A DNA stretch of 64,000 nt from a virus (IMGVR_UViG_3300025009_000051:1-64000), one strand, 5' to 3'. Positions 9,395 to 34,337 are shown, numbered from the stretch's first letter. Numbers and translations are program-made. The notes: a model not told the origin generated them from the letters alone.

Positions 9395-9420
9395 TAAAAT
9401 AAAAAAATCATATAAAAGAG
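9395..9420 (-). other. 3' end of tnpB: candidate guide segment matching 27247-27271
   Basis: Read on the minus strand, 9420 to 9402 is CTCTTTTATATGATTTTTT, covering the last codons and stop of the TnpB-like gene. The same 19 bases, and after one extra T the next six, occur at 27271-27247 in front of the DnaB gene. In TnpB systems the guide follows the 3' end of the gene, so this is the place where a guide would lie. Confidence 0.35.
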
Positions 9421-12965: not shown

Positions 12966-13265
12966 TAATAATCCGGTTGTATTAAACCCTCCCCCGTGTA
13001 TGATATTATATGTATCTTCTTGTTTTACAAATTCTTCGTCTACCATTTCTTTTTCTTTCTCTATCATTTCTTCTTTAGTATCAAAATCAAACAAAATTTC
13101 TTTTTTAAAATTTTCTATACCACATTCTTGAATTGCTTCTTTTATTAATCTGCCAGATCCCATATATTCATCATTTATATTACTGGTTGCATGCTGCCCA
13201 ATATAAATTTTACCATTCAAAATATTAGTTATCTTATAAATTAAATAATGTTTTCTTTTTTCCAT
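11916..13265 (-). CDS. GIY-YIG endonuclease with 11 tandem C-terminal repeats
   Basis: 449 residues. The N-terminal about 95 residues are a GIY-YIG nuclease: LIYKITNILNGKIYIGQH holds the two signature strands, EYMGSG... and a conserved Glu follow, and the domain ends in TYNIIHGGGF. From residue 101 to the end are 11 copies of a roughly 30-residue module whose best form is VKDKDGNTFQV-x-DPRYLSGEL followed by a basic KGK turn. Copies 4-7 are the most divergent. Such modules follow GIY-YIG nucleases in phages and probably read DNA along the target. The gene is free-standing, interrupts nothing visible and is most likely a homing endonuclease. Confidence 0.8.
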   Translation of the reverse strand: MEKRKHYLIYKITNILNGKIYIGQHATSNINDEYMGSGRLIKEAIQECGIENFKKEILFDFDTKEEMIEKEKEMVDEEFVKQEDTYNIIHGGGFNTTGLLPVRDKEGNTFSVSINDPRYLSGELISITKGKIPVKDKKGNTFQVDKTDPRYLSGELISIFKDRIVVKDKDGNTFQTDNNDPRYLSGEFVGINKGKKGKHTYKNNKGEKIHAYNDDIRLESGEFKGIVTGTYCVRDKDGNISRIECNDKNKELESIHKNMLIAFDKNDKKIYVHKNDLRLITKELIIGVLVKNEKNQNIYIRCDNDKYLSGELKSPFVNTVLVVDDKNKCFRIKTDDPRFLNKEVKALSKGKISVKDKDGNTFQVLVNDPRYISGELKHAATGRLTVKDKDGNTFNIFKTDSRYISGELVSVNKGTILCKNKDGIKKRLSLNDPRIISGEFIHFRKTFTN

Positions 13266-19335: not shown

Positions 19336-20025
19336 TTAGTTTAAAATTTCTATGTATTCTGGTTGAATGTTATCTAATGTATATATTCCATCAATAAAAT
19401 TTGGGTCTTTAAAAAATCTAATATTTGATAATAAATCACTGACTCTCATTTTTAAAATGATTAAAGGTTCTGCAGAATAACTCCCTAAATTTTTAATTAA
19501 TTTTTCTGTATTCTTTAAATCGGTTATAAAATAAATTCTATTTAGATGTTTGTCTCTTTTACTTTTTGATTTTGGATATAATCCTTTTTCTTTTATTTTC
19601 TTAAGATTTATTTCAGAAGTGATATGATAAATAAAATTTAATTTATCTTTATTTATTTCAATATCATATTTTGCTTCTAAGATTAAAATTAAATATTCAT
19701 AGTCTGATAACAATACCTTATTAAATAGTTCTTCATTAAATTTTCTTTTTTGAATATCTTTATTTCCTAAATATTTTATTTGAAATTGAGATACAAACCA
19801 TCCCAAATTATTAATCAAAGGAAATAATTTATCAATATTATCTAATTTAATTATTTTTAATTCTATTGTGTTTTTATCTTTGTCTACTTTAAAAATCTTA
19901 TAATCATTGTTTTGAAGAATAGAAATTGAATTTTCTATAGAATGAGTTATAATTAATCCTTCATATAATTTAGTATTGTTATATAAAGATAAATCAGATA
20001 ATATTTCTTTTAATTTAATTTCCAT
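19336..20025 (-). CDS. ART-fold-like protein, copy A (paralogue of 23678-24436)
   Basis: 229 residues. The C-terminal half holds IYHITSEINLKKIKEKGLYPKSKSK... HLNRIYFI, the YHxT...I...GL.P...RIYF pattern of the KptA/DarT-type ADP-ribosyltransferase fold. The N-terminal half (KLYEGLIITHSIENSISIL, then NNLGWFVSQ) is shared with the protein at 23678-24436, which also matches in EAKYDIE and in DPNF.DG.YTL. An NAD-dependent transferase or RNA 2'-phosphotransferase-like role is possible, but the catalytic Glu is not evident. It overlaps the upstream gene by 16 nt. Confidence 0.5.
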   Translation of the reverse strand: MEIKLKEILSDLSLYNNTKLYEGLIITHSIENSISILQNNDYKIFKVDKDKNTIELKIIKLDNIDKLFPLINNLGWFVSQFQIKYLGNKDIQKRKFNEELFNKVLLSDYEYLILILEAKYDIEINKDKLNFIYHITSEINLKKIKEKGLYPKSKSKRDKHLNRIYFITDLKNTEKLIKNLGSYSAEPLIILKMRVSDLLSNIRFFKDPNFIDGIYTLDNIQPEYIEILN

Positions 20026-20322: not shown

Positions 20323-22008
20323 TTATCCGCACAAGCTGGCCCCGCAATCCAAGCATCTAAGGCAACCGTCTGTATAAATTAAATTTGAACTACCACAATT
20401 CTCGCACGTTTGTCCTTTAGCTTCTACTCCATCTTTAACAAATTTTTTCAATATCCTTATAACTCCTTTTTTCCAAGTTGTCATAATAAATTGTTCATCA
20501 TTTTCAAATTTTAAACTTGCTACCAATTTAATTACATATTCCATTGGATGCCGGTGTCGTAACAATGAACTAATTAATTTAGCCATGTTCCAAGCCTCTC
20601 TATCAAATACTCTATTTAATCCTTGCATTATTACTTCATATCCTTGTTTGTCTTTATAAATGAAGTCATACCTACTTCCATGTCCATTATCTTTAATTTT
20701 TTTAATAATGCCTTCTTCTACATAACCTGGTACATTAAAATCATCTAATTTACCAGTAAAAATTTCATATGGATAAGTTTCTTTTTCTGATTCTTTATAT
20801 ACTCCTATAAATCCAATCCATTGTTCTTTATTATTTTGAAACTGTATAACTTTAGCAACTAATTCAGAAGGTCTTCGTTGAGCATTATTTGTAATAAATT
20901 GCTTTAATTCTGGTTTTTCTGATTCTTTATTTATTAATACTCCAGATCTACTTCCGTCTCGATATATGGTAAATCCTTTACAACCTACTTCCCAGGCTTT
21001 TTTATATAATTCATCTACTGTTTCTACTGTTACATCATTAGGAAGATTATGGGTAACGGATAGGCTATGGGAGACATATCGCTGGATTATTCCTTGCATT
21101 TCTACTTTCTTAATCCAATCTATTTCGTTTGCAGTTGCTTTATAGTATGGTGATTTACTAATAATAAAATCTAAAGTTTTTTCATCTATTGATGTTAAAT
21201 CTGGTTTATAATCTATATCGAACCATTTAGTATTTAATTTAAACCAATTTGAATCATACCATTCAACAAATTTAGGATGAAATACATTATACGTTTCCCA
21301 ATAATCTCCGTTTGCATCTGGCTCCGACGCTCTTGTATCTTTATCGTTTGGATTAATTTTTCTTTTTCTCTTATAAGATATATTAAATGCTGGTTCTAAT
21401 CCTGAAGTTGTTTGTGTCATGAGGGAAACGGAACCTCCAGGAGCTATCGTAGAGATACTAATATTTCTTCTACCATAATATGAATGTAGAGTTTTTAGTT
21501 CTTCATCTAAGCCAAATAAGAAATTCATAAATTCATCATCTTCCTCTAATTCAGGAGTATAATCAGGAAATGCTCCTCTTTCTTTTGCTAATATACAACT
21601 TTGTTTATATTCATTTATTGCTTTTATTTCAAATACTTTTTTTGTAAATTCATTTGCTTCGTCTGTTCCATATCTCAGGTTCATCGCTGCTATCATATCT
21701 CCTAATGCGGTAATTCCTAACCCAGTTCTTCTTGCGTTGAGAGCGTTAGATTTTATTTTTTTCCACAAATTAATTTCTGTTTGTTTTACTATGTCATCCT
21801 CAGGGTCATCTTTTATTTTCTTTAAAATTGAATTTATTTTTTCAATTTCTAAATCTATCACATCATCTAATATTTTTTGTGCATATCCAACATGCAATTT
21901 AAATAAATCGAAATCAAATTTAGAATCATTTTGAAATTTATTAATTACATAATTAAATAAATTTATTGATAATAGAATGCATTCAGAAAAAGGAGACATG
22001 CCAATTTC
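20323..22008 (-). CDS. nrdJ: Class II ribonucleotide reductase, C-terminal half (exon 2)
   Basis: From the intron junction this exon encodes EIGMSPFSECILLSINLFNYV and 540 more residues. The family's barrel core follows: RRTGLGITALGDMI, then RNISISTIAPGGSVS and TTSGLEPAFN, and later SHSLSVTHNLP. It ends in a zinc-ribbon tail (CENCGSSN... CLRCLDCGASLCG), typical of B12-dependent NrdJ, which makes dNTP precursors from NTPs. The catalytic Cys and the Gly after it come from exon 1 at 22262-22342. If unspliced, translation could start only at the ATG at 21999, giving a protein without that Cys. The N-terminal half is a separate gene at 24433-25830; joining them appears to need RNA and protein splicing. 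Confidence 0.8.
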   Translation of the reverse strand, partial: EIGMSPFSECILLSINLFNYVINKFQNDSKFDFDLFKLHVGYAQKILDDVIDLEIEKINSILKKIKDDPEDDIVKQTEINLWKKIKSNALNARRTGLGITALGDMIAAMNLRYGTDEANEFTKKVFEIKAINEYKQSCILAKERGAFPDYTPELEEDDEFMNFLFGLDEELKTLHSYYGRRNISISTIAPGGSVSLMTQTTSGLEPAFNISYKRKRKINPNDKDTRASEPDANGDYWETYNVFHPKFVEWYDSNWFKLNTKWFDIDYKPDLTSIDEKTLDFIISKSPYYKATANEIDWIKKVEMQGIIQRYVSHSLSVTHNLPNDVTVETVDELYKKAWEVGCKGFTIYRDGSRSGVLINKESEKPELKQFITNNAQRRPSELVAKVIQFQNNKEQWIGFIGVYKESEKETYPYEIFTGKLDDFNVPGYVEEGIIKKIKDNGHGSRYDFIYKDKQGYEVIMQGLNRVFDREAWNMAKLISSLLRHRHPMEYVIKLVASLKFENDEQFIMTTWKKGVIRILKKFVKDGVEAKGQTCENCGSSNLIYTDGCLRCLDCGASLCG

Positions 22009-22261
22009 CTTTTTTTGTTATAAGTATTATTTTAAAAATACTATCTTAAATTTCTTTAAGTGTCGGACTATATCTTCATTTAAAATGTTAAATGCCGGGC
22101 GCTCGTGTTTGGTTTATTGTTAAAACTACTCACCAATTAGTCTCTGAACCTTATTTGATACTATTATGTTTATTCTCAAATTTTGGCTGCTGATTGCCTT
22201 GTATAAAAATATTTAGGTTTCCAGCAATTCACCCGATGTTTTAATTGAGGCAAAATTATCT
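22009..22261 (-). ncRNA. Group I intron (253 nt, no ORF) in the RNR gene
   Basis: On the minus strand the conserved core appears in order: P-like GAATTGCTGGAAACC, Q-like AATCAGCAGCC, R GGTTCAGAGACTAA and S GAAGATATAGTCCG. A P9 hairpin CTTAAA-GAAA-TTTAAG follows. The 5' exon end UUGUGGU pairs with GCCUCAA inside the intron (one U-U mismatch), giving the U-G wobble at the splice site. The last intron base is G. Splicing joins codons for Cys-Gly to Glu-Ile-Gly, rebuilding the NrdJ active-site context. The intron has no internal ORF; the nuclease at 22302-23579 lies just outside its 5' side. Confidence 0.85.
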
Positions 22262-22342
22262 ACCACAATCTACTGATAAAATAGATTTATCAATATAATT
22301 TTTAATTTTCTGCTTTGAGCGTGTTATTTTTTTTATTACCAT
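22262..22342 (-). other. Candidate exon 1 of the RNR C-terminal half (intein C-end plus Cys-Gly)
   Basis: An ATG at 22342 opens a 27-codon frame ending ...NYIDKSILSVDCG at the intron border, in a different frame from the overlapping nuclease gene. Cys-Gly is the start of the C-extein; the residues before it would be the intein C-terminus. SVD-Cys replaces the usual HN-Cys, so splicing activity is uncertain. No clear ribosome binding site is visible before the ATG. The P1 pairing of the intron fixes the exon end well; the exon start is a guess. Confidence 0.45.
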
Positions 22343-23579
22343 AATAGTATTGTTTAAATTGGTTAAAATTATTAAAATATTTATTTATTGTATCTTCACT
22401 AATTCCTAAATTTTTTGGAATTATTTTTTGAGATTTTAATTTCTTAATTTCTATCAAAAATTCCTGCATTTCAATATTTGGATAGTGAGTAAAAATTTGC
22501 GTGCTGGCGTTCACTAATTTATTTTTAAAAACTTTTTTCACCCTTTCTGGAGACATTGTTTTTCTTTTTGTTTTTCCTGTTTGGAGATTATATTTTAAAG
22601 TGCAACCTGAAGAACAAGTTTTTTTATCATTATTTTGTCTATCTTTAAATTCTTTACCGCACATAATACAATTTTTATTTATTATTGGATTTATATTGTT
22701 ATATTTTTCTTGATTCTTTCTACTTCGTTCTTTAGCCTTTTCAGATAATTTTTTAATAATTTCTGGATTATTTTTATAAGTTTCTTTTATTGCGTCGCCA
22801 ATTTTTTTCCTATATAGCGGATCCTCACATCTTTTTTTAGCCTTTTCTCCAATTAATTTTTTTGTCTGTTCACTGCATTTTATACCATACCTTGGATTAT
22901 TTTCTCCTCTGGTATCGATTTGGATTGTAGCAATATTATTCTTCCATTCATTTACATTTTCTTTTATATTTGGATATTGCTTTAAAATATATGCATAACT
23001 TGTTAATATTTCAAATTCGATGTTTAAAGTTTTAAAATATTTTTTAAATATGGTATATTTTTTTAGCAACTCTTTATTTTTTATTTTTCCCGCTTTTATT
23101 TCGTAAATTTTTATTAATTCATTATCTTTATAAATAAAAATGTCCGGTTTATAATTTAATTTATTAACATGATAAATTTCACATTCTGTTTTAATTTTAT
23201 ATTTGGGAGAAGTATATATGTTTAAATAAAAATTTAATAAATGAATATATTCTGCTTGGCTTCTACAAAAATGCTTATTATTGTGTATTGTCAAATAGCC
23301 GGAATATCCTCTACTGTGATTATTTTTATTTATATTTTCATAAATTTTTCTTTGCTTTTCAATTTCAATTATATATTCGCTTTCAATTAAATTTGTCTTC
23401 AATATCCAATACGATTTTGATAATTTTGTATTGGAGGAATTAATAAATTTTATAATTATCTTTGCTTCATTGTCTTCTATTTTATCAAAATTAAAATATT
23501 CTAAAGTCTTTGTTATATGTTTGTCAAATCCAGTTCTTACAGTCAAATTAGATAATTGTTCAAGTTCAATTTTTGTCAT
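22302..23579 (-). CDS. PD-(D/E)XK homing endonuclease with NUMOD3 and zinc motifs
   Basis: 425 residues. KPDIFIYKDNELIKIYEIKAGK (about residues 157-178) has the PD...E-x-K metal site of the PD-(D/E)XK fold. It is followed by a NUMOD3-like DNA-binding motif (GENNPRYGIKCSEQTKKLIGE) and a zinc module (CIMCGKEF... CSSGC). A helical C-terminus follows. It is lodged between the two halves of the RNR gene, next to the ORF-less group I intron and the intein site. This is the position expected of a nuclease that spreads the whole interruption into empty RNR alleles. A late-type element precedes it. Its 3' end overlaps the candidate exon 1. Confidence 0.7.
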   Translation of the reverse strand: MTKIELEQLSNLTVRTGFDKHITKTLEYFNFDKIEDNEAKIIIKFINSSNTKLSKSYWILKTNLIESEYIIEIEKQRKIYENINKNNHSRGYSGYLTIHNNKHFCRSQAEYIHLLNFYLNIYTSPKYKIKTECEIYHVNKLNYKPDIFIYKDNELIKIYEIKAGKIKNKELLKKYTIFKKYFKTLNIEFEILTSYAYILKQYPNIKENVNEWKNNIATIQIDTRGENNPRYGIKCSEQTKKLIGEKAKKRCEDPLYRKKIGDAIKETYKNNPEIIKKLSEKAKERSRKNQEKYNNINPIINKNCIMCGKEFKDRQNNDKKTCSSGCTLKYNLQTGKTKRKTMSPERVKKVFKNKLVNASTQIFTHYPNIEMQEFLIEIKKLKSQKIIPKNLGISEDTINKYFNNFNQFKQYYYGNKKNNTLKAEN

Positions 23580-23603
23580 ATATATTTATTTAAAATTATT
23601 ATA

Positions 23604-23613
23604 AATAAATATA
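23604..23613 (-). promoter_or_regulatory. Late-promoter-like element for the nuclease gene
   Basis: TATATTTATT on the minus strand, 24 nt before the ATG at 23579. Confidence 0.4.
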
Positions 23614-23627
23614 TACAAAATACCTTT

Positions 23628-23681
23628 TTACAGAAATGAAGCTTGTTTTACTTCAGGTTTAATTATTTTTGTAATTTTCAT
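23628..23681 (-). other. 17-codon reading frame, possible intein C-piece remnant
   Basis: MKITKIIKPEVKQASFL starts in the stop codon of the ART-like gene (ATGA overlap). Its start resembles the first residues of known split-intein C-halves (short basic M-x-K-K-I-x-K-I text), but there is no Asn-Cys end. It may be the left remnant of the C-intein displaced by the nuclease gene. This is weakly supported. Confidence 0.2.
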
Positions 23682-24436
23682 AATTCTATAATTTCAATGA
23701 TTTTTATATTTTTTGGGTGTATATTTTCTAAGGTATAATATCCATTTGAAAAATTGGGATCTTTAAATAATCTATCTATCCCATCAGTATTTATTTCATA
23801 TATCACAAATTTATTTTCTTTAACTTTTAGATATTTTTGTATTGGGCGCCCGAGTAATTTTGCATCTTCTATTGTCTTGGAAAAATAAATTCTATCTGGA
23901 TGAGTAGATATTTTATTTTTTGCCTTTGGAGTTAAACCATATTTTTGAATTTTATCTTTGTTATAATAAGGAGAAATATGATATACTTTATTAGGTATAT
24001 CTACTTCTAAATCATATTTAGCTTCTAACACAATTTGAATATAAGAATAGGTATCGACTAATTCTAATATTTGATTTACAATTAATGCGGACCATTTTTT
24101 TCTTTGTACTTTATCTGTAAGGTATATTATTTTTGCGGGAAACCATCCAAGATTATTTATTGTAGATAATATAAGATTAAAATTAGATAAAATAAATTTA
24201 ACATTTTTTTTATTGATTAATAATTCTATAGTATTGTTTTTTTTAGAACAAGATAAATAATTATAAGTAGAATTTAAAATTCTAATACTGGAAGATATAT
24301 CAGTTGTATGAATTAATCCTTCATATAATTTTTGTACTTTATAATCATATTCCATTTCAGATATTAAACTCTCATCTAAGCAGGATCGTTTAAATCTTTT
24401 CAGCCATGATTTAGTAATATTGGTTTGATTTATCAT
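23678..24436 (-). CDS. ART-fold-like protein, copy B, between the RNR halves
   Basis: 252 residues. Shared blocks with 19336-20025 are KLYEGLIHTTDISSSIRIL, INNLGWFPAK, VLEAKYDLEV, KVYHISPYYNKDKIQKYGLTPKAK with HPDRIYF, and LFKDPNFSNGYYTLENIHP. The H of YHIS and the Tyr of RIYF match the His and Tyr of KptA/DarT-type ART folds; a catalytic Glu is not certain. The start overlaps the stop of the RNR N-terminal gene (ATGA), so the two are translated together. Its place inside the fractured RNR suggests it arrived, or was captured, with the interruption. Confidence 0.5.
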   Translation of the reverse strand: MINQTNITKSWLKRFKRSCLDESLISEMEYDYKVQKLYEGLIHTTDISSSIRILNSTYNYLSCSKKNNTIELLINKKNVKFILSNFNLILSTINNLGWFPAKIIYLTDKVQRKKWSALIVNQILELVDTYSYIQIVLEAKYDLEVDIPNKVYHISPYYNKDKIQKYGLTPKAKNKISTHPDRIYFSKTIEDAKLLGRPIQKYLKVKENKFVIYEINTDGIDRLFKDPNFSNGYYTLENIHPKNIKIIEIIEL

Positions 24437-24957
24437 ATTAATTCGTGTTTTTCTGTTAATTCATACGCAAATAATTGCCCTTTATCTGTGTTCACTATAT
24501 CAAAATATTTAAATCTAATATTATCATTTATAATAATATCTTCATCTACAATAAATTCTTCTTTATTTAAAATACTAAAAAAATTATAATTGGGAGATGC
24601 AGTTAAATCATATACATCTTCTTTCATATCTGTTTCTATACAATTTAATACTTCTACCAATCCTTCTCCAGATATAATAAATTTACCTATTATATTGTCA
24701 ATTACTACTTCTTCAAAATTTTCATTATAAAATTTATGTTTTGAATTAATTAACATAAATTCACCATTAGAAAATTCAATTTTATACAATTCAGCTTGTT
24801 CTTCTGTTAATAATACATCTTGTAAATCTGAATTATATAATTTACCTTCTTTATCTCTTGTTATTATTTTATAATTGATTTTTTTAAAAGTTTCTAATAA
24901 ATTTTTAATCTTAATCCATCCTAGATTAGTTAATACCAATGTATCTCCAATTACGCA
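24433..24957 (-). mobile_element. N-terminal intein segment in RNR (174 residues)
   Basis: This segment begins at residue 292, just after TTSTNP: CVIGDTLVLTNLGWIKIKNLL is intein block A. NSKHKFYNENFEEV resembles block B, and EDVYDLTASPNYNFFSI is a good block F. No block G (HN before Cys) follows; the frame runs on for 45 residues to a stop. It is therefore either a split intein whose last strand is supplied in trans or an intein fragment left after an insertion. Confidence 0.65.
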
Positions 24958-25830
24958 AGGATTTGTGCTTGTGGTTTTATATTGAGGATAACTATCAGAA
25001 GGACTATAATTGACAAGTTTATCCCAAAACAATATTCCTGGTTCTGCACTCTTCCAATTATTTTCTATTAATTTATTCCAAATTTTTCTTGCATCTACTT
25101 CTTTAGTATAAATCGGATTATCTGAATCTATAGGATATTGCTGAGTATAAGTAGTACCATTTATAACCGCATTCATAAATTCATTATCGATTTTAACCGA
25201 AATGTTAGCACCGGTTATTTTATTTGTATCTAATTTTGCATTTATAAAATCTTCTGCATCCATATGTTTAATATGAATTGAAAGCATAAGAGCTCCTCTT
25301 CTTCCATCTTGTGCAACTTCTCTTGTACTATTAGAATATCTTTCCATAAAAGGAACCACTCCTGTAGATGTTAAAGCTGAATTTTTAACAGGTGTACCTT
25401 TTGGTCGTATGTGAGACAAATCATGTCCAACTCCACCTCTTCGTTTCATCAATTGCACTTGTTCTTGATCTGTCATTAATAATCCACCATAACTATCAGC
25501 TTGATTACCTATAACAAAACAATTGCTTAAACTTGTATATTGATTATTATTTCCAACTCCAGACATTGAACCTCCTGCAGGTACTATGTATTTGAATTCT
25601 TTTAATAGTTGATATATTAATTCTTCTGATAATGGATTTTCATATTTTGATTCTATCCTATGTAATTCTTTAGCTAATCTTTTATGCATGTCATCTGGGT
25701 TAGTTTCGAATAAATTTCCTAAACTATCTTTCAAACAATATTTGTTAATCCAGACATTTGTTGCGAGTTCGTCGCCTTTAAAATATTCTAAAGTTTTATT
25801 AAATACTTCTTCTCGAGTATATGATTTCAT
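24433..25830 (-). CDS. nrdJ: Class II ribonucleotide reductase, N-terminal half fused to an intein segment
   Basis: 465 residues. Residues 1-291 are the N-extein: VPAGGSMSGVGNNNQYTSLSNCFVI, then KRRGGVGHDLSHIRPKG and EVAQDGRRGALMLSI, features of the NrdJ N-terminal barrel with the redox Cys104. The extein stops at TTSTNP, exactly before the radical-bearing Cys of the Asn-Pro-Cys-Gly-Glu motif. Residues 292-465 are intein-like. The C-terminal half is encoded about 2.4 kb downstream on the same strand. Without protein splicing this half has no catalytic Cys. It overlaps the ART-like gene by ATGA and follows the DnaB gene by 5 nt. Confidence 0.8.
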   Translation of the reverse strand: MKSYTREEVFNKTLEYFKGDELATNVWINKYCLKDSLGNLFETNPDDMHKRLAKELHRIESKYENPLSEELIYQLLKEFKYIVPAGGSMSGVGNNNQYTSLSNCFVIGNQADSYGGLLMTDQEQVQLMKRRGGVGHDLSHIRPKGTPVKNSALTSTGVVPFMERYSNSTREVAQDGRRGALMLSIHIKHMDAEDFINAKLDTNKITGANISVKIDNEFMNAVINGTTYTQQYPIDSDNPIYTKEVDARKIWNKLIENNWKSAEPGILFWDKLVNYSPSDSYPQYKTTSTNPCVIGDTLVLTNLGWIKIKNLLETFKKINYKIITRDKEGKLYNSDLQDVLLTEEQAELYKIEFSNGEFMLINSKHKFYNENFEEVVIDNIIGKFIISGEGLVEVLNCIETDMKEDVYDLTASPNYNFFSILNKEEFIVDEDIIINDNIRFKYFDIVNTDKGQLFAYELTEKHELI

Positions 25831-25835
25831 ATTAG

Positions 25836-27233
25836 TTAAAATTTAGATTGAATTTTTTGGTGCATTTGAAATAATGAATTCACCTTTTTTGAATTATTTT
25901 GATTGTGTTGCTCTACAATTTTTCCTGTTTGTCTATTTAATTCTATTTCTTGACCTTCTTCTGATTCTTCATCATACACCTGTATTTGACCATATTTTAA
26001 ATCTATTGACATTGGATAAGACATTCCGTCGGGACCTACTCTACTTTTTATTATGTGTCCTTTTCCTGTTTTTGAAATTTTATCTTTATTAGTTCTATTT
26101 TGAGACATAACAAAATCAGCATGAAATAATTTCTCCCACGCACCGGATATAGATTTATCTTGAATTATATCTTGCTCATCGGCACTTCCCCTATTTCCTT
26201 GGCTAACGCTGATACAAGGAATATTATATTTTTGTGCAATTTCACCTTTAGCTTCAATATACAACTGTCCTAATATTTGATCGTCTCTTTTATTCTTTCC
26301 AACATTTATTGCTTTCATTAAATCTAAATAATCGATAAATACTTCATCTGGCTCGAATTCAATTGCTCTTGTTTTTTCTATATGTGCTATTAAAGTATTC
26401 ATTGATGCCGACCCCGCAGGATATTCTTTTATTATTAACATTCCTGGAATGTCTTTCAATTTAATTTTTATATCATCTTTATATTTTGTTAATTGTTCTA
26501 CAGGAATACCAGAAAAATAAGTATCAAATCTTTTTGCCACATATTGCGCACTCAATTCAAGAGTATAATAAATTACATTTTTTCCAAGTGTCATTGAATG
26601 TGCAGCCATATTTATCATTGTCCATGATTTTCCACCCCCAGGTTTCCCCACAAAAATCCACAATTCTCCCGCACCCGGCCCTCCTTGTGTGACATCATTT
26701 ATAATAGGCCAAGGAGTTGGAATTGGGTTTCGTAAATCTACTGCATATCTGCTATCTATATCTTTTTTATAATCGTGCCCCAAATTCTTATCTGTTCCAG
26801 CTTGACCGGCTTTCTTTATTATTTCTTGTATTTCATCATATTTTCCTATCTGCAATAAATCTACAGAATCAAGAATAGCTTGTTTTAAAACTTGATTTTT
26901 ACAAAAAGTAATGGTTTCGTCTCTGATAATTTTTAAATCATCTGACTCCATCATTTTATAACTTTCTAATAAATTTATTCTTACAGATTCTTTTAATTGT
27001 TCGTTAGTAATCTTTTCCAAATAAATTTTCATAGCATCTGCCGTGGGTGCTTTATTATACTCGGTGTAATATTCTAAAATTTTAGAAATGATATAACGAT
27101 TTCCTTCATTATCAAAATATTCAGGTAATAAAATATCTGACACTTGAATCAAATAATTTACATCCATCAATAATGAACTTATAACTTTTATTTGGAAACT
27201 GCTACCATAATCTGATAACTTGTCTACTGTCAT
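25836..27233 (-). CDS. dnaB: Replicative DNA helicase, DnaB/gp41-like
   Basis: 465 residues. After a helical N-terminal domain (residues 1-150) comes the RecA-like core: GELWIFVGKPGGGKSWTMI is Walker A and VFIDYLDLM is Walker B. VSQGNRGSADEQ resembles motif H3, and the KSRVGPDGMSYPM arginine-finger/loop region follows. It unwinds DNA at the fork as a hexamer. The C-terminal tail is Gln/Asn/Lys-rich. A 25-base sequence 20-38 nt upstream matches the 3' end of the tnpB gene and is preceded by TTGAT. Confidence 0.85.
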   Translation of the reverse strand: MTVDKLSDYGSSFQIKVISSLLMDVNYLIQVSDILLPEYFDNEGNRYIISKILEYYTEYNKAPTADAMKIYLEKITNEQLKESVRINLLESYKMMESDDLKIIRDETITFCKNQVLKQAILDSVDLLQIGKYDEIQEIIKKAGQAGTDKNLGHDYKKDIDSRYAVDLRNPIPTPWPIINDVTQGGPGAGELWIFVGKPGGGKSWTMINMAAHSMTLGKNVIYYTLELSAQYVAKRFDTYFSGIPVEQLTKYKDDIKIKLKDIPGMLIIKEYPAGSASMNTLIAHIEKTRAIEFEPDEVFIDYLDLMKAINVGKNKRDDQILGQLYIEAKGEIAQKYNIPCISVSQGNRGSADEQDIIQDKSISGAWEKLFHADFVMSQNRTNKDKISKTGKGHIIKSRVGPDGMSYPMSIDLKYGQIQVYDEESEEGQEIELNRQTGKIVEQHNQNNSKKVNSLFQMHQKIQSKF

Positions 27234-27246
27234 ATTTTTTATACTT

Positions 27247-27271
27247 TAAAATAAAAAATCATATAAAAGAG
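27247..27271 (-). promoter_or_regulatory. Leader of dnaB matching the tnpB 3' end, with TTGAT beside it
   Basis: Minus strand 27276-27272 is TTGAT, followed at 27271-27253 by CTCTTTTATATGATTTTTT, identical to 9420-9402. TTGAT is the TAM of the ISDra2 TnpB. The site lies 20-38 nt before the DnaB start codon, where a promoter or leader is expected. Confidence 0.4.
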
Positions 27272-27290
27272 ATCAATATCTTTTGTAAGA

Positions 27291-28310
27291 TTAAACTTTG
27301 ATATAATTGGTTAGATTAGAAAATACTTCTGTCACCCATTTTTGAGTATATTTAATTATTGTTCCTTCTAATCCATCTACTGTCGAATATTTTAAAAATG
27401 AAAATGTATTTAATTTTGGTACTTCACTTTCTAATATCTTTTTTATTTCTTCTTTTTGACTTTCAAATAATAATGGTTCTTCTAACTGCATTATTTTATA
27501 ATTCAATTGCATTCGTTCTTTACTATTTTTCATATCAGAAAGAATTTTATATTTATCTAAATCTGCACAAGTATCTAAATAATTGTATATATCATCTACT
27601 GTTCTTCTTTTATCTTCAAATAAAAATGGTATTCTTTTTTGTAATGTTTTTAATCCTACTCCACTAACTCCTGGAATATTATCTGAATTGTCACCATTAA
27701 ATATTTTATGAATTATAAAGTTTTTTGGTATTAAATCAAAATTTTCTTTAATGTAATTTTCATCAATTATGATTTTTTTTGTTGGAGAATAAACGAAAGT
27801 ATCTTCATCTATTAATTGATAAAAATCTTGATCTGTACTCATTATATATTTTTTAGAATTTTTATGAGTATGAACAATATGTGCAATTACATCGTCTGCT
27901 TCTGCATTATCTATCATTACAATGTGAATAGGAAATAATTTTAAATAATCTAATAATCTATTCAACTGTAATTTTATTGCAAAATTTTCTTCTTCTACAG
28001 AATTATATATTGAATTTTTAGGAGCGGTCTTGACAACATTTCTATTAGCTTTATAATCTGGAAATATTGCTTTCCTTTGAGATGAACCATTTACTCCATC
28101 AAATACAACTATACAATGAGTAGGTTTTAATAATTTTATTGCATAACCAAGAGATAATAAGAAACCACCATATCCACCAATAGGAACACCGTTATCATTT
28201 ACAATGTGTGATATAGATGTTCCTCTGATGAATGTATTCATACCATCTACTAATAAGATGTTAGAATCTAGAGTTCTAATTTGATTTGTAAGATTAGAAA
28301 AGAAACTCAT
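27291..28310 (-). CDS. 5'-3' exonuclease / flap nuclease (T4 RNase H type)
   Basis: 339 residues with the FEN/PIN fold. ILLVDGMNTFIRG holds the first Asp, CIVVFDGVNGSSQRKAIFPDYKANR the helical arch start, and DNAEADDVIAHI and STDQDFYQLI further metal ligands. HKIFNGDNSDNIPGVSGVGLKT is the Asp pair plus the helix-hairpin-helix DNA-binding motif. It removes RNA primers and flaps during lagging-strand synthesis. It sits between RecA and DnaB in the replication operon, 2 nt after the RecA C-terminal gene. Full length for the family. Confidence 0.8.
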   Translation of the reverse strand: MSFFSNLTNQIRTLDSNILLVDGMNTFIRGTSISHIVNDNGVPIGGYGGFLLSLGYAIKLLKPTHCIVVFDGVNGSSQRKAIFPDYKANRNVVKTAPKNSIYNSVEEENFAIKLQLNRLLDYLKLFPIHIVMIDNAEADDVIAHIVHTHKNSKKYIMSTDQDFYQLIDEDTFVYSPTKKIIIDENYIKENFDLIPKNFIIHKIFNGDNSDNIPGVSGVGLKTLQKRIPFLFEDKRRTVDDIYNYLDTCADLDKYKILSDMKNSKERMQLNYKIMQLEEPLLFESQKEEIKKILESEVPKLNTFSFLKYSTVDGLEGTIIKYTQKWVTEVFSNLTNYIKV

Positions 28311-28311
28311 A

Positions 28312-29733
28312 TTAATCTTCTTCTGCGTAAGTATCTTCTAAAAATCCAGATTCATCTACTCTCTCGAATATGATGTTTTCTTCACTTAATTCTGAAGTTT
28401 TGTATTGCATAATTAATGTATCCGCCATAGCATTGTAGATTTGTTCTTTTAGATATGGATTTGTAACTGTAATATATTCTTCAAAAGTTTTTCTTTGAAA
28501 TTTATGTTCTAAAGGTAAATCATCTTTATCAGATTTTTCTAAATCTATCCATGTGTACCAAGCTCCACCTTTTTTAATTAATCCATATAAATCCAAGGTA
28601 TCTAACCAATTTTCATATTCATTAATACCTGAATCATAATAGATATTAAATTCAGTTTTTCTTAAATTTGGACCACATCTGTTTTTCTTTACCTGTGCTA
28701 AAGTAGTAATACCAATGACTTGTTCTACTCCATTTACTTTACCTTTTATTTGTCCTGCAGGTTTTAATCTTATTCTTACAGAAGCATGAAATCCAATAGC
28801 TTGACCTCCTGAAGTGGTGTTGTGATTTAACCAACCATTTGCATAATAATTATGAATGTCTTTAATATCAAAATCTACAACATTCATTTTTTCAGATACT
28901 TTCGTAAATTTAGAAGAAAAATCTTTAGCGTGCACCCAATCCGTTCCGTCCCAAACTCTATGATTTCCTGAGCATTTTAAATTTCCATCTGTATAATGTT
29001 CTAAAACAGATTCTTTAATGATAAAAGATTTTATAGGTTTATATACATCTTCACCTGTTTTTAAATCTTGACCTAAAATCTCACAATTTAATTCTGGATC
29101 TATATCAAATATTTCAGGATTTTCAAAATCATCATTATTAGCAAATCTATCACTGAAATCTTTTATTGATATTTCTTCTTCAGTATATTTTTTTGAACGA
29201 TATCCTTTATCATTTGATTTCCAATCTGATTTATATCTAATTTTGATATTAGTAGAATATGGATCAACACAATAAGGATCTCCAAAAGAAGTATTATGAG
29301 AAACAATATCATTAGATAAATATGAATGATCCCCATCTAATTCAAAATCTACAATTGGTATTATATAATTTGTAGCATCTACACAAAAAGGAATCCATAA
29401 ATTATTATTCTTTAATAAAAAATTTCTATAATTATTATTTTCACATAAAAATCGAGTTTCTAAAAACCCTTCAGACAAATCATTTATATTTCTACATAAA
29501 ATTTTATGTTCGTCTGCAACTTCTAAAGATTTATTTTCATATGTAATAATATACATTTTTGTATCTGGCTTTCTAATTAAATTTATAACTCTATTCCATT
29601 TTCCGTCTTGAGTTAAAATTTCGTAATTTTTTGAGGATACATCATAAGGTTTGTTAATTTCCATTTTGGTATAATCATACCCCAATTCAGCAAAAAAATC
29701 TTTAATATTTATTTCTAATTCTGTGCTATACAT
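28312..29733 (-). CDS. recA: RecA/UvsX C-terminal half with split-intein C-piece and a second intein
   Basis: 473 residues in five parts. Residues 1-147 are a C-intein (VIPI-type strands, block F IVDFELDGDHSYL, end NDIVSHN). 148-154 are the extein TSFGDPY. 155-305 are a complete mini-intein (CVDPYSTNIKIRYKSD to IHNYYANGWLNHN) with no nuclease domain. From 306 TTSGGQAIGFHASVRIRL continues the RecA core. An acidic C-terminal tail (ESGFLEDTYAEED) follows. Joined to the N-half the core reads RVKLG-TSFGDPY-TTSGG, as in bacterial RecA around loop L2. Mature RecA thus needs one trans and one cis protein splicing event. The start ATG lies inside the end of the nuclease gene. Confidence 0.85.
   Translation of the reverse strand: MYSTELEINIKDFFAELGYDYTKMEINKPYDVSSKNYEILTQDGKWNRVINLIRKPDTKMYIITYENKSLEVADEHKILCRNINDLSEGFLETRFLCENNNYRNFLLKNNNLWIPFCVDATNYIIPIVDFELDGDHSYLSNDIVSHNTSFGDPYCVDPYSTNIKIRYKSDWKSNDKGYRSKKYTEEEISIKDFSDRFANNDDFENPEIFDIDPELNCEILGQDLKTGEDVYKPIKSFIIKESVLEHYTDGNLKCSGNHRVWDGTDWVHAKDFSSKFTKVSEKMNVVDFDIKDIHNYYANGWLNHNTTSGGQAIGFHASVRIRLKPAGQIKGKVNGVEQVIGITTLAQVKKNRCGPNLRKTEFNIYYDSGINEYENWLDTLDLYGLIKKGGAWYTWIDLEKSDKDDLPLEHKFQRKTFEEYITVTNPYLKEQIYNAMADTLIMQYKTSELSEENIIFERVDESGFLEDTYAEED
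28819..29271 (-). mobile_element. Contiguous mini-intein 2 in RecA (151 residues)
   Basis: C155 to N305 of the C-terminal half: block A CVDPYSTNIKIRYKSD, block B CSGNHRVWDGTDW, block F VVDFDIKDIHNYYA and block G NGWLNHN followed by Thr. No nuclease domain. Its block A resembles that of intein 1, so the two inteins look like relatives. Confidence 0.85.
29293..29733 (-). mobile_element. C-terminal piece of split intein 1 in RecA (147 residues)
   Basis: It starts MYSTELEINIKDFFAEL, which aligns with the second part of block A (EEISIKDF) in intein 2. VADEHKILCRN is the block B His region, and NDIVSHN is the C-terminal His-Asn before Thr148. The matching N-piece is the 16-residue tail of 30735-31442. 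Confidence 0.8.
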
Positions 29734-30680
29734 AATATTTCTTTTATTTGTTTTTTAAATTTATTTGTTTCGTTTATAATGTCGTGTTCCCATATTTCAA
29801 AATAATGAATATCTTGACCGTATTTAGTGTATATCTGTGCTTTCTTTCTTTTGTCCCTATTTATATTGCTCCTTTGTACTCCTTGTAAATTATTGTAATT
29901 ATAAATTTCTGGATTTGCATGCCAATAATCTCCTTGTACTTCGATAAAAATATTTTCCCTAATCCTGAAATCTACAGAATACCAATAATCTTTATTATTA
30001 TAGTCTTGCACACATACCATTTCATTATATCTATATTGAATATTGTTTTCTTCTAAAATATTTTGAATTTTTAATTCCGGTCTTGTTATTCCGCCCGCAA
30101 ATTTCCAACCCTCTCGTTTAAATGTCTTTCCAAAATATTTTTTAAACCAAGGGGCATAAGGAACACTAATTACTTCTTTAAATAAAGATTTAAATTCATT
30201 TTTTGTATATTTTTCAATATTATTTTCTAACCAATCCAAAGTTTCTTTTCTAAATAACATATTTGAATTAAAATATGCTTTTACTCTAATTTTATTTGCT
30301 TTTAATATTTCTGCATCTGTTAAGGTATTAGAATAAGAGTTAATATGCCATTCCCTTATATTTAAATATTCTGATATTAATCTATATGAATAGTAAGGTT
30401 TTTTTAACATTTCAAATATAATTTTTTTATCTTCTTCTGAAATTTTAAATTTGCGTGATTCTGATATTTTCTTTTTTGTTTCTTCACTTGTAAAATGCCC
30501 CATTAAACTTTTCTGTCGTTTTAAAACAGATTCTGGCGATTTTGGTACTCCCGGCTTACATCTATTAAAATGTTTAAGTTTGCAAGTTTCAGAACAAAAA
30601 TATCTTGTTTGTTTTTTTGATATTATAAAAATATTTTCATTGGGTATTTCATTTTTACAAGGAAAAAAATTGCATTTCAT
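29715..30680 (-). CDS. Vsr-like (EDxHD-type) homing endonuclease between the RecA halves
   Basis: 321 residues. There is an N-terminal zinc motif (CKNEIP... FCSETCKLKHF) and a NUMOD3-like SEETKKKISESRKF segment, followed by a helix-turn-helix-like region. The C-terminal nuclease carries YSVDFRIRENIFIEVQGDYWHANP (acidic residues and His) and GQDIHYFEIWEHDI, the pattern of the Vsr-related homing nucleases known from fractured genes with split inteins. It lies exactly at the split of RecA and overlaps the C-terminal half by 19 nt. A late-type element is 11 nt upstream of its ATG. It most likely cuts uninterrupted recA alleles and spreads the arrangement. Confidence 0.8.
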   Translation of the reverse strand: MKCNFFPCKNEIPNENIFIISKKQTRYFCSETCKLKHFNRCKPGVPKSPESVLKRQKSLMGHFTSEETKKKISESRKFKISEEDKKIIFEMLKKPYYSYRLISEYLNIREWHINSYSNTLTDAEILKANKIRVKAYFNSNMLFRKETLDWLENNIEKYTKNEFKSLFKEVISVPYAPWFKKYFGKTFKREGWKFAGGITRPELKIQNILEENNIQYRYNEMVCVQDYNNKDYWYSVDFRIRENIFIEVQGDYWHANPEIYNYNNLQGVQRSNINRDKRKKAQIYTKYGQDIHYFEIWEHDIINETNKFKKQIKEILCIAQN

Positions 30681-30691
30681 AAGTTTTTTAT

Positions 30692-30701
30692 AATAAATAT
30701 A
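30692..30701 (-). promoter_or_regulatory. Late-promoter-like element for the nuclease gene
   Basis: TATATTTATT on the minus strand, 11 nt before the ATG at 30680; it would let the nuclease and the RecA C-half be expressed late, apart from the N-half. Confidence 0.4.
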
Positions 30702-30734
30702 AAAGAACTTAAAAAATAAAGTTTATTTTAGTTG

Positions 30735-30785
30735 TTACGTTATTTTCTTCCGAATAATAATATTAGTTGTTTCTGGATTTACACA
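30735..30785 (-). mobile_element. N-terminal piece of split intein 1 (16 residues plus stop)
   Basis: CVNPETTNIIIRKKIT. Residues C, V, P, T, N, I and R-x-K match the start of intein 2 (CVDPYSTNIKIRYK), which supports it being a genuine intein start and not random read-through. Confidence 0.75.
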
Positions 30786-31442
30786 ACCAAGCTTAACCCG
30801 TAATTGTTGGTTTATAATTAATATAGCATTTGTCTTACCAATTAAACTTGTAATTTTTCTCATTGCTTTAGAATTGATAATAGCTTTATCAGTGTTCCAT
30901 CCTTCTTTCTTATAATCTCCTTCATATTCATTTAAAGCTACTGCACCAGATTGAGAATCAAATACAATTGTTACTGGAACATCTTTCTTTTCAGATTGAA
31001 TTTTAATTAAAATATCTTCAATAGTTTGATAAATATCTTCTAATATATTCATTTCAACATAAACCATTTTTGATAAATCGACTCCAATAGCTTCCAAGAA
31101 TGTTGTATCCGATGCATGCTCTGTGTCAATGTAAACTCCAATTCCACCGAGTTTTTGAGTATTTTTTATTGCGTGAGCAGCTAATAGAGACTTCCCCGAC
31201 GCCTCCAAACCTGATAACTCGATAATCTTCCCGCGGGGCCATCCTCCTTCCCTTTTATTTGAAATAGCAATGTCAAGTGTCGGACTACCTGTAGAAATCC
31301 AACCTTTAACTTCTTCTTGTGCATTCAAAAATAATGCTACATCTTTATCTTTAAATTTGCTATTAATATTTTGTTTAATAATTGATGCTAAATCAAGATT
31401 ACTTTCTTTTAAAGGTTCTTCACCCTTTGATTTTTTTGCCAT
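30735..31442 (-). CDS. recA: RecA/UvsX N-terminal half ending in a 16-residue N-intein
   Basis: 235 residues. IIELSGLEASGKSLLAAHA is Walker A, VPVTIVFDSQSGAVAL Walker B, and ILIINQQLRVKLG the strand before loop L2. At residue 220 the RecA sequence stops and CVNPETTNIIIRKKIT begins, followed at once by TAA. This is intein block A only, much shorter than most natural N-inteins. The partner is the C-terminal half at 28312-29733. The protein catalyses strand exchange in phage recombination and repair, but this half alone lacks the C-terminal core strands. It is separated from the SSB gene by a terminator. Confidence 0.85.
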   Translation of the reverse strand: MAKKSKGEEPLKESNLDLASIIKQNINSKFKDKDVALFLNAQEEVKGWISTGSPTLDIAISNKREGGWPRGKIIELSGLEASGKSLLAAHAIKNTQKLGGIGVYIDTEHASDTTFLEAIGVDLSKMVYVEMNILEDIYQTIEDILIKIQSEKKDVPVTIVFDSQSGAVALNEYEGDYKKEGWNTDKAIINSKAMRKITSLIGKTNAILIINQQLRVKLGCVNPETTNIIIRKKIT

Positions 31443-31466
31443 ATAACTTCTTTATTAAAAATAGTT

Positions 31467-31498
31467 AAAAAAAGAGTGACAAAAATATCACTCTTTTT
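31467..31498. terminator. Terminator between SSB and RecA
   Basis: AAAAAGAGTGA pairs with TCACTCTTTTT around an 8-nt A/T loop; symmetric A and T tails make it usable on both strands. On the minus strand it ends the SSB transcript. Confidence 0.75.
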
Positions 31499-31516
31499 AA
31501 TTAAAAATAAATTATT

Positions 31517-32521
31517 CTAACCAAACAATTCTTTGAATTTATCGGTTGCTGCACTAACAGCGTCTGTATTCTTTGGTTCTTCTTTTGGAGCTTCTACTTT
31601 TTGTTCAACCTTTGTTTCAGATTGAGTAGACGTCGTTGCAGGAGCATTGTATTTAATTTCTTCTTTCTTATCTGTCTTTCTATTATCTTCTTTTTCTTTC
31701 TTATTCAAATAAATATCTAAATCTCTTTGCAATTCTTCAAAAGTAGGTTTTCTATAAATATCATAAATATCAATTTGATTATGTAGAATTTCATAAGCCA
31801 AATCTTTATCAGTTGTTAAAACTGAAGATTTATTTTCAAATTTAACATTTGTTTCTCCAAAAGTTTTAGTACTCCACGGACCTTTATAGTTAGGATATTT
31901 TTTCATAGTTTGTTCCTTATTCTTTTCTGAAGGAGTATAAGTAACTTCTAAATCATAACCTTTCTCAGGATCTGTAAAATCTACATCTTCACCAGGTTTA
32001 ATTACATTAAAATCTAATAGATTCTTTTGAAGTGTTAAAGCAGCTTTCACAATTTCGGTAAAAATTCCTTCACTGTGAGTCCACCATTTTAATTCTTTTT
32101 CATTTTCTCTATCTACCATGATACAATTATATCTTGGAATTGCTTGTTCTTGAGCAGCATTTTGTTTTCCTCCTAAGATTTCGGTACCAAGAAAATACAT
32201 TTTTTTGCCTTCTTCCGGTTGTGGGTTTGTTTTATTGAAAGTTAATTCGTTACCAGCTTTAATTTGTTGAACTGCAAAATCTACAATTGGATCTTGTTCG
32301 TTAAAATTCTTTAAGCTTAGTTTCCCGCCCGGACAAACTGCATAGTGCATGTTTAATTTAAGAAATGGATCTTGAGGAGTGTCCTTTAAAGGAATAATTC
32401 TAATTCGATTTAATCCGGGTTTAGGTGCCCATAATCTTGGATCCCTTTCAAATGATTTGCCTTCGTTTTTACTCTGAAGGTCTTCGAGTTTTTTTCGTAA
32501 ATTGTCTAAATTTAATCCCAT
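31517..32521 (-). CDS. Single-stranded DNA-binding protein, gp32-like
   Basis: 334 residues. SFERDPRLWAPKPGLNRIRIIPL is the characteristic gp32-type start of the OB core. The central part has YNCIMVDRENEKELKWW and GYDLEVTYTPSEKNKEQT. The last 55 residues are Lys/Glu/Ala-rich linker followed by an acidic-hydrophobic tip (AATDKFKELFG), as used by gp32 to recruit replication partners. The protein coats ssDNA at forks and in recombination together with RecA and the helicase. It has its own terminator. Confidence 0.75.
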   Translation of the reverse strand: MGLNLDNLRKKLEDLQSKNEGKSFERDPRLWAPKPGLNRIRIIPLKDTPQDPFLKLNMHYAVCPGGKLSLKNFNEQDPIVDFAVQQIKAGNELTFNKTNPQPEEGKKMYFLGTEILGGKQNAAQEQAIPRYNCIMVDRENEKELKWWTHSEGIFTEIVKAALTLQKNLLDFNVIKPGEDVDFTDPEKGYDLEVTYTPSEKNKEQTMKKYPNYKGPWSTKTFGETNVKFENKSSVLTTDKDLAYEILHNQIDIYDIYRKPTFEELQRDLDIYLNKKEKEDNRKTDKKEEIKYNAPATTSTQSETKVEQKVEAPKEEPKNTDAVSAATDKFKELFG

Positions 32522-32598
32522 GTTGTAAAAATTTAAATTTGGTTAATAAAAAATTGTTAAGATATTATAGTAAAAAAATTAATATAATCAAAAAATAT

Positions 32599-32931
32599 TT
32601 AATGTTTTTTTAAAAAGATTTTTTTCAATTGTTCTTCGTTAGTTAAAATCAATAAATTATTAGGAAACTCGTTCCAATCTATTACATAATTATTATTTAT
32701 TTCGATTAATCGATTTAATGAATTTATTGTAAAGTATATATTATAAGGTGTCTTTCTTTGAATTACTATTGTCTTTGGTATTTTGATATCTATATAATTA
32801 TAAATTAAAAATACTTCGTCTGAATTATCTTTGTTATAATAAGAATAAATATTATTTTCTGTATGTTTTTTAATTGTATTGTAAGAATCTATTCTTGTTT
32901 CCTCGGTGGAGAAAGTGCATAACATCCTCAT
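32599..32931 (-). CDS. Hypothetical protein
   Basis: 110 residues: MRMLCTFSTEETRIDSYNTI, then SYYNKDNSDEVFLIYNYID and a basic end (KKIFLKKH). Soluble, mixed alpha/beta. It lies between SSB and the polymerase-like gene, so a replication-linked role is possible, but nothing identifies it. A late-type element is 12 nt upstream. Confidence 0.45.
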   Translation of the reverse strand: MRMLCTFSTEETRIDSYNTIKKHTENNIYSYYNKDNSDEVFLIYNYIDIKIPKTIVIQRKTPYNIYFTINSLNRLIEINNNYVIDWNEFPNNLLILTNEEQLKKIFLKKH

Positions 32932-32943
32932 ATTCTTTTTTAT

Positions 32944-32953
32944 AATAAATATA
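32944..32953 (-). promoter_or_regulatory. Late-promoter-like element
   Basis: TATATTTATT on the minus strand, 12 nt before the ATG at 32931. Confidence 0.4.
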
Positions 32954-32981
32954 AGAAATATTTATTTTTTAAAAGAATTTT

Positions 32982-34337
32982 CTATTTCAATTCATTATAA
33001 TTTGTAGAACTTTGTTTAGTTTTTAAACTGAATACTTTATTAGATAAGATATTTTTTATTTCTTCAATATGCTGCATTTCATCTTTATGAATATCTAACA
33101 ATAAAGAATCATAAGTGTATAATAAAATATTTATTTTTTTGTTTTGAATAAATTCTAATAGATTGTCAATGAGCATTAAGGTCAATTCAAATTCAGACAA
33201 CTGTAAAGAATAATTTAAAAGCTTGCTTGCAGTAACTCCTTCTACATTTTGAATTTTCCTTCCTGTTAGCATTGAATTAATGAATCCATTAGATTGATAG
33301 GTATCAAAATCTTGAATAGTTAATTGCTTTACTTTTTTAAAATAAGGTATAGATAACAAAGTGTCAGGAATGCCTCCATACAAATAATTAAAATTTTTAC
33401 TTTTTGTTTGTTTATATTCTTCTTCATTTAATGTTTCTTTATTAAAATAATATCTACCTAAATATTCATGCATATTAATTCCATTTGGAATTTCATACCC
33501 GACCATTTTTGCTAATATTGCCAAGTGATATGCAGTATAATCAAATTCAATTAATAATCCATTTTCTTTATATTCACTAACAATCCATTTTCTTTTATTG
33601 CTGTTCTTATCTAATGCTGAAAAATTTATTCCTCCAAATTTATTAGAAGCCCTACCAGTAGAAGTATAAATATTATATTCAGAATAGATTTTTGTTTGTT
33701 GTTCATTTAAAATATGATTTTCTATTTTATCTGGAAATGCTGTTATTAATGCTTCTTTATCAAATGGTATTCCAAAAGATTCAATTTTAAATAAATTTAG
33801 AATAATAGAATTATTATAGTATTCGTAATCGGTATCAAATAGATGAGAATTTAATTTTTCTAACTGAATAAGACTTTTATTTATTATAGGAATTAATGAT
33901 TGATAATGAATAGATATAGGAATTATATCACATTTTATTTTTTTATATTTTGAATATTGATTATGATTGTGCTCTACTTCTATCTTTTCAAATTTATCTT
34001 CTTTCAAATAACTCAATAAATTAATATCAAAAATATTTTCAGTATTGCTTACATTTAATTTTAGAAATGATTTTTTGTCTAAAACAAATATATTTTTCTT
34101 TTCATCTATATCTAATTTATCAATTGTAAATTCAATATCATAATGACTGACATTTATGATATAATCAAACTCTAATTCATATGAACTATTTAATAATCCA
34201 ACATAATAGAATAAAATAGAATTTATTTGATAATGAATTTCAGAATAACGATATACAGGTAATATTAATATATTATCGAATTTAGATAACTTATCAATAT
34301 ACTCTTGATAATTTTTATGATTTAAGATTATTTGCAT
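32982..34337 (-). CDS. Divergent family A DNA polymerase (palm domain)
   Basis: 451 residues. The C-terminal half has the three polymerase motifs: YTSTGRASNKFGGINFSAL leading into LLIEFDYTAYHLAILA (motif A, catalytic Asp), KSKNFNYLYGG (motif B, O-helix Lys and Tyr-Gly) and LYTYDSLLLDI (motif C, catalytic Asp). The N-terminal about 170 residues show no recognisable DEDD exonuclease motifs. The protein is about half the usual PolA length, so it is either a compact polymerase without proofreading or part of a split enzyme. It is the only polymerase candidate within the replication operon here. Confidence 0.65.
   Translation of the reverse strand: MQIILNHKNYQEYIDKLSKFDNILILPVYRYSEIHYQINSILFYYVGLLNSSYELEFDYIINVSHYDIEFTIDKLDIDEKKNIFVLDKKSFLKLNVSNTENIFDINLLSYLKEDKFEKIEVEHNHNQYSKYKKIKCDIIPISIHYQSLIPIINKSLIQLEKLNSHLFDTDYEYYNNSIILNLFKIESFGIPFDKEALITAFPDKIENHILNEQQTKIYSEYNIYTSTGRASNKFGGINFSALDKNSNKRKWIVSEYKENGLLIEFDYTAYHLAILAKMVGYEIPNGINMHEYLGRYYFNKETLNEEEYKQTKSKNFNYLYGGIPDTLLSIPYFKKVKQLTIQDFDTYQSNGFINSMLTGRKIQNVEGVTASKLLNYSLQLSEFELTLMLIDNLLEFIQNKKINILLYTYDSLLLDIHKDEMQHIEEIKNILSNKVFSLKTKQSSTNYNELK

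Follow-up and report, generated by a model that had tools for sequence, protein, structure and literature searches.

A phage recA gene that appears to be fractured by an atypically split intein, with a second intein seven residues away

The window is a stretch of 64,000 nucleotides of viral DNA (IMGVR_UViG_3300025009_000051:1-64000). It comes from a metagenomic contig, is AT-rich (26% GC), and the virus is a virus of bacteria. Its recA gene, on the minus strand, is broken after the residues RVKLG into two open reading frames, and a nuclease open reading frame lies between these. No further RecA matches are present elsewhere in the 183,716-bp viral record. The features, in the direction of reading, are as follows (L002, L008 and L013 are related viral loci described below).

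30735-31442, minus strand: recA N-half open reading frame; 219 RecA residues, then CVNPETTNIIIRKKIT and TAA
30786-31442, minus strand: RecA N-extein, 219 aa, with Walker A and B, ending RVKLG; Pfam RecA E 6e-33; aligns with E. coli RecA after predicted splicing
30735-30785, minus strand: intein 1 N-piece, 16 aa (CVNPETTNIIIRKKIT) plus TAA; aligns with residues 1-16 of the unsplit intein of L008 and with the 16-aa N-piece of L013
30681-30734, minus strand: spacer of 54 nt between the N-half and the nuclease; a weak hairpin (z -1.7) pairs the bases immediately 5′ of the ATG
29715-30680, minus strand: nuclease gene, 321 aa, with EVQGDYWHANP and a NUMOD3-like stretch; homing-endonuclease candidate; L013 counterpart 45% identical
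28312-29733, minus strand: recA C-half open reading frame; intein 1 C-piece, TSFGDPY, intein 2 and RecA C-extein
29293-29733, minus strand: intein 1 C-piece, 147 aa, ending NDIVSHN; TIGR01443 intein_Cterm above cut-off; homologous to L008 and L013; gp41-1 profile match
29272-29292, minus strand: micro-extein TSFGDPY, seven RecA residues between the inteins; the spacing in intein-free relatives is 7, in a few 8
28819-29271, minus strand: intein 2, contiguous, 151 aa, CVDPYSTN...WLNHN; Pfam Intein_splicing E 0.0027 (weak); contiguous intein 2 of L002 52-54% identical
28315-28818, minus strand: RecA C-extein, starting TTSGGQAIGF; Pfam RecA E 8e-10, TIGR02012 E 5e-16

The ATG of the C-half overlaps the nuclease 3′ end by 19 nt. 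An initial annotation of this DNA had drawn the RecA N-half up to RVKLG with the 16 residues and TAA behind it, and a C-half whose first 147 residues end in NDIVSHN ahead of TSFGDPY; all of these pieces lie where it placed them. Its reading of one split intein is supported, but it missed the second intein, 151 residues long and seven residues further on.

The joined exteins (219 + 7 + 168) give 394 residues, and they align with E. coli RecA free of gaps across both junctions. The intein 1 site falls between the equivalents of E. coli G200 and V201, and the intein 2 site between those of E207 and T208. Both sites are inside the DNA-binding loop L2 of RecA, residues 195-209 by established structure. 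The RecA intein of Mycobacterium tuberculosis also interrupts RecA and gives a HINT fold match (E 3e-6), but it is contiguous and has its endonuclease inside the intein. Judging by the NCBIfam model, it lies about 40 residues further on, outside L2.

Cys1 of intein 1 is present in CVNPETT, right after RVKLG. The C-piece ends in VDFELDGDHSYLSNDIVSHN and is followed by T, and so the block-F Asp, the block-G His-Asn and the +1 nucleophile are all in place. An alignment of 17 inteins drawn from the two sites shows no variation at the block-B His, the block-F Asp or the penultimate His, and almost none at the terminal Asn. A profile of these 17 inteins matches the gp41-1 intein (E 1.3e-7). It should be pointed out that block B of the window's intein 1 reads ADEH instead of TxxH: the His is kept and an Ala stands at the position where the aligned relatives have Thr or Ser. 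This Ala may slow the first splicing step. The window's intein 1 diverges most within the family and its block B is unusual; it is therefore possibly slow, and function can be argued most strongly for the intein family, less so for this particular intein.

Structural modelling was performed with the unsplit intein 1 of L008, which is 42% identical to that of the window, as a stand-in for the window's 16 + 147 pair. The model (pLDDT 95) has top PDB matches that are all inteins with the HINT fold; the best is the VidaL intein 6vgv (E 2.8e-9, identity 17%), followed by gp41-1, DnaB and other inteins. On this model, the window break falls in the turn that connects strand 8-13 to strand 16-21, which is the S1 site. 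S1 denotes a split after strand 2 and belongs to the atypically split inteins, which have N-pieces of 15-37 residues (PMC13014065). The window's intein 1, with its S1 site and 16-residue N-piece, fits this class. The initial annotation's idea of an N-piece shorter than any described is not supported, as PolB16 OarG with 15 residues and VidaL with 16, both split at S1, are published (PMC13014065); a length of 16 is no record. The split position is the same as in VidaL and PolB16, and VidaL is the best fold match of the unsplit homologue, whereas identity to VidaL in the structural match is 17% and the insertion context is another one.

Searching IMG/VR with a RecA profile yielded 80 loci; 83 loci were examined. 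Both intein sites are empty in 72 of the 83, with a spacing between them of exactly seven residues (TSFGDPY-like) or one extra. The same fracture is found in L013, on a different contig: a 16-residue N-piece CVNPETTDVIFRTQIN, a homologous nuclease, a C-piece, TSFGDPY and a whole intein 2, with proteins about 45-55% identical to those of the window. Chance is excluded because L013 repeats both the architecture and the N-piece length, and because those 72 loci are uninterrupted at the same place. L008 has a whole intein 1 and an intein 2 split by a nuclease gene. Five loci of the RecA profile search (L022, L028, L040, L048 and L055) have an empty site 1 and a split site 2, and L002 has an empty site 1 and a whole intein at site 2. 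In all relatives examined, recA keeps its synteny with gp32-like and exonuclease genes. The reading of the locus as a phage RecA with a naturally split intein and an intervening nuclease gene is supported, and L008 supplies the unsplit copy whose search had been suggested.

When all viral contigs (2.9 million) were searched at the DNA level with the degenerate pattern LG-CVNPE(T/S)T, only L013 and L008 came up. The arrangement that the initial annotation had named as evidence against its reading, the same N-piece without a C-piece, was found in none of the 2.9 million. With the RecA N-half alone as query, the search for close relatives gave no confirmed match. The 484-kb phage LR756508, for which a tblastn match ended at N-half residue 219, was rejected as a fractured relative, for its RecA is uninterrupted. 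The intein 1 C-piece and intein 2 gave no match in 50,697 GenBank phage records, and thus no phage of that collection is seen with either. Similarly, the intein 2 profile found no relative in bacterial and archaeal genomes, one per GTDB species.

A second profile search, with intein 2, gave 32 contigs. Counting the fully read contigs and the loci from the RecA profile search, intein 2 is split in 22 contigs and whole in eight (seven plus the window). The split forms have N-pieces of 15-20 residues, except for 28 in L093 and L094 and 39 in L117, and in most cases a nuclease open reading frame of the GDYWHANP type lies between the halves. In L055, a second nuclease open reading frame, of the GTYWHLDP type, is found immediately past the split recA (L055:7495-8535). 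Intein 1 and intein 2 form separate clades in the intein tree (support 100/99), and whole and split forms are intermingled; there are at least six state changes, and the tree gives no direction. The two inteins share the gene, the loop, the split position and the GDYWHANP-type nuclease between the halves, but they differ in clade and in nuclease, with about 25% identity between the window nuclease and that of the intein 2 site, which are clearly different.

Some split intein-2 genes are without the nuclease. In L093 and L094 it is deleted, with deletions of different extent that leave 106 and 65 nt, and part of its 3′ end is still recognisable in the residual nucleotides (E 1.5e-7, small database). 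The intein N-piece, the C-piece and the RecA C-part are all still open. In L117, the two intein-2 open reading frames overlap by 14 nt and the nuclease is absent between them. A few codons past site 2, the recA C-part of L117 also contains a probable group I intron, which has an endonuclease open reading frame of its own (L117:1707-3677). Two RF00028 matches (32.7 and 29.8 bits, each below the Rfam gathering score) flank that open reading frame. Among the most closely related split intein-2 pairs, dN/dS is 0.05-0.20, and by this measure the split halves are shown to be under purifying selection. These observations speak for a functional split form, since with a broken intein nothing would select for both halves once the nuclease is gone.

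The 321-residue open reading frame between the recA halves lies where the initial annotation placed it; its Vsr assignment is weakly supported, with a profile E value of 0.008 against the Vsr endonuclease 1cw0, next to 0.002 against T7 endonuclease I, both in the C-terminal region. The NUMOD3 motif is a weak match, and nothing above cut-off was found in Pfam, NCBIfam or PHROGs. The structure model is poor (pLDDT 58), and a fold search with this poor model gave no significant match. By position and motif the nuclease is regarded as a Vsr/EDxHD-like homing endonuclease, an assignment to family that is weak at the sequence level. I-Bth0305I comes from a phage recA intron. It is one of the EDxHD homing endonucleases, which are phage homing enzymes with a Vsr-like core (PMC3943268). 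Here, the nuclease gene is inside a split intein instead, and its membership in this group is weakly supported by sequence.

Three relatives have strong hairpins in the interval from the N-piece stop to the start of the nuclease (L013:1767-1846, z -5.0; L008:6139-6222, z -4.0; L040:5737-5798, z -5.2); the window hairpin at the equivalent place is weak (z -1.7). The translation of T4 intron endonucleases is controlled by hairpins, and by analogy those 5′ of the nuclease start could control nuclease translation. Timing by a separate late element, which had been proposed for the window, finds no support: the T4-type late promoter motif TATAAATA occurs 26 times in the window against an expectation of 27.6, which is no enrichment, and is absent upstream of the nuclease start; the hairpin there is weak as well. 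Sigma-70-like and terminator-like sites are near shuffle expectation.

A free-standing nuclease gene between split-intein halves, the mark of a fractured gene, is present in the window, in L013 and in further relatives. The states of the relatives, together with the VidaL fold match, therefore point to a fractured gene with atypically split inteins. We consider it highly probable that intein 1 is split at S1 by a homing-endonuclease gene and trans-splices, that intein 2 cis-splices, and that a single RecA of 394 residues results. A homing-endonuclease gene would have entered the hairpin turn after strand 2 of a small intein at site 1, so that intein 1 would be made as two proteins: the RecA N-part with the 16-residue N-piece, and the C-piece with the remaining RecA. 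After translation, the two chains would associate. The splicing reaction of both inteins we infer from their sequences. Intein 1 would splice in trans, using C1, the block-B His, the block-F Asp, the terminal His-Asn and Thr+1, and intein 2 in cis, with C1...HN and Thr+1. The two splices would rebuild the L2 DNA-binding loop, and the spliced peptide across the junctions VKLG-TSFGDPY-TTSGG would read VKLGTSFGDPYTTSGGQAIGFHASVR. We also infer the activity and the target of the nuclease, which as a separate protein probably cuts the intein-free recA of co-infecting phages and would thereby spread the element; mobility is suggested only by the distribution.

The nuclease gene might alternatively have broken recA and left two decaying remnants, with dead intein halves and host RecA in use. 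The Ala at the block-B Thr position would be in keeping with this, as would the unremarkable dN/dS of the window's intein 1, which is not low (dN 0.50-0.52; dS 0.64-0.90, likely saturated). Against decay, every open reading frame is open, the other catalytic residues are kept, and dN/dS of the exteins, window versus relatives, is about 0.2-0.3. In addition, L013 keeps the same arrangement, and split halves stay intact after nuclease deletion. Decay is thus improbable.

RecA might also work as two non-covalent pieces that are never spliced, as is known for a ribonucleotide reductase, NrdA of phage Aeh1 (cited in PMC10448857). Such genes-in-pieces are without intein sequence, whereas here both pieces have complete intein ends with catalytic residues; moreover, a whole intein 2 sits inside L2 of the C-half, and a normal L2 requires its removal. 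We give this very little credence. Removal at the RNA level by a group I or II intron, with an incidental intein resemblance, has in its favour the probable group I intron of L117, a few codons further on in recA, and that of the window's own nrdJ; it is exceedingly improbable, as Rfam yields no match at E<=1 for 27000-33000, and it leaves unexplained the complete intein ends, the contiguous L008 intein 1 and the nuclease-deleted split genes. An assembly chimera or frameshift artefact joining unrelated pieces, conceivable in an AT-rich metagenomic contig, has next to no probability, given the same order and piece lengths on another contig in L013, with proteins about 45-55% identical, and the gp32-like and exonuclease synteny kept in all relatives examined.

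Given a fractured, trans-splicing recA, we lean towards a broader reading, in which phage RecA preserves in its loop L2 the natural history of atypically split inteins, their origin as well as their persistence. Entry of endonuclease genes into the strand-2 turn would split a mini-intein, the split would outlive the nuclease because recA then needs trans-splicing, and two separate intein lineages, together with the L117 group I intron, would have converged on a single stretch of a few dozen bases; in one case a seven-residue micro-extein would be all that separates two splicing events. To our knowledge, the origin of atypically split inteins with tiny N-pieces has so far been inferred, not observed. 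All the states are found at the same two sites in related phages, and therefore split-intein birth and fixation become directly testable.

Fractured genes with split inteins (gp41, NrdA, NrdJ, IMPDH) were reportedly described by Dassa and co-workers in 2009. The present case is alike in that a phage gene is broken by a free-standing endonuclease gene between split-intein halves, and the C-piece has a profile match to the gp41-1 intein, which is of that type. It differs in the split after strand 2, with a 16-residue N-piece, in place of the canonical endonuclease site, and in the host gene, RecA, with a second intein seven residues away. Further split inteins in UvsX-type recombinases are said to be listed from Lake Vida metagenomes, and therefore a RecA-like host may be no first. 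As far as our searches reach, what is new is the occurrence in RecA L2 of two inteins, one of them split and the other whole, with seven residues between them; the fact that either intein may be the split one, depending on the phage; the complete range of states (empty, whole, split with nuclease, nuclease-deleted); and the absence from GenBank phages and from one genome per GTDB species. The many new natural split inteins with N-pieces of 15-17 residues are short enough on that side for peptide synthesis, and the window offers a predicted natural example in which a trans and a cis splice would take place at a distance of seven residues within a recombinase DNA-binding loop.

Other interrupted genes and mobile-element-like sequences occur elsewhere in the window, all on the minus strand. 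Open reading frames of 229 and 252 aa at 19336-20025 and 23678-24436 are paralogue-like, both with YEGLI..T..I..SI.IL, and have no Pfam match. A 444-aa open reading frame at 9408-10742 resembles the TnpB/OrfB type by eye, also with no Pfam match. At 11916-13265, a GIY-YIG (SegE-like) endonuclease is followed by about ten DPRYLSGE-type repeats. The nrdJ-like ribonucleotide reductase (20323-25830) is interrupted as well: its N-part ends in an intein-like stretch CVIGDTLVLTNLGW... with no clear C-terminal splice site, an endonuclease-like open reading frame lies at 22302-23579, and a group I intron (22044-22271, 99.7 bits) precedes the C-part. The T4-like portal gp20 (61429-63909) contains a full intein that includes an HNH/NUMOD3 region; the match to Pfam Intein_splicing scores 58.6 bits.
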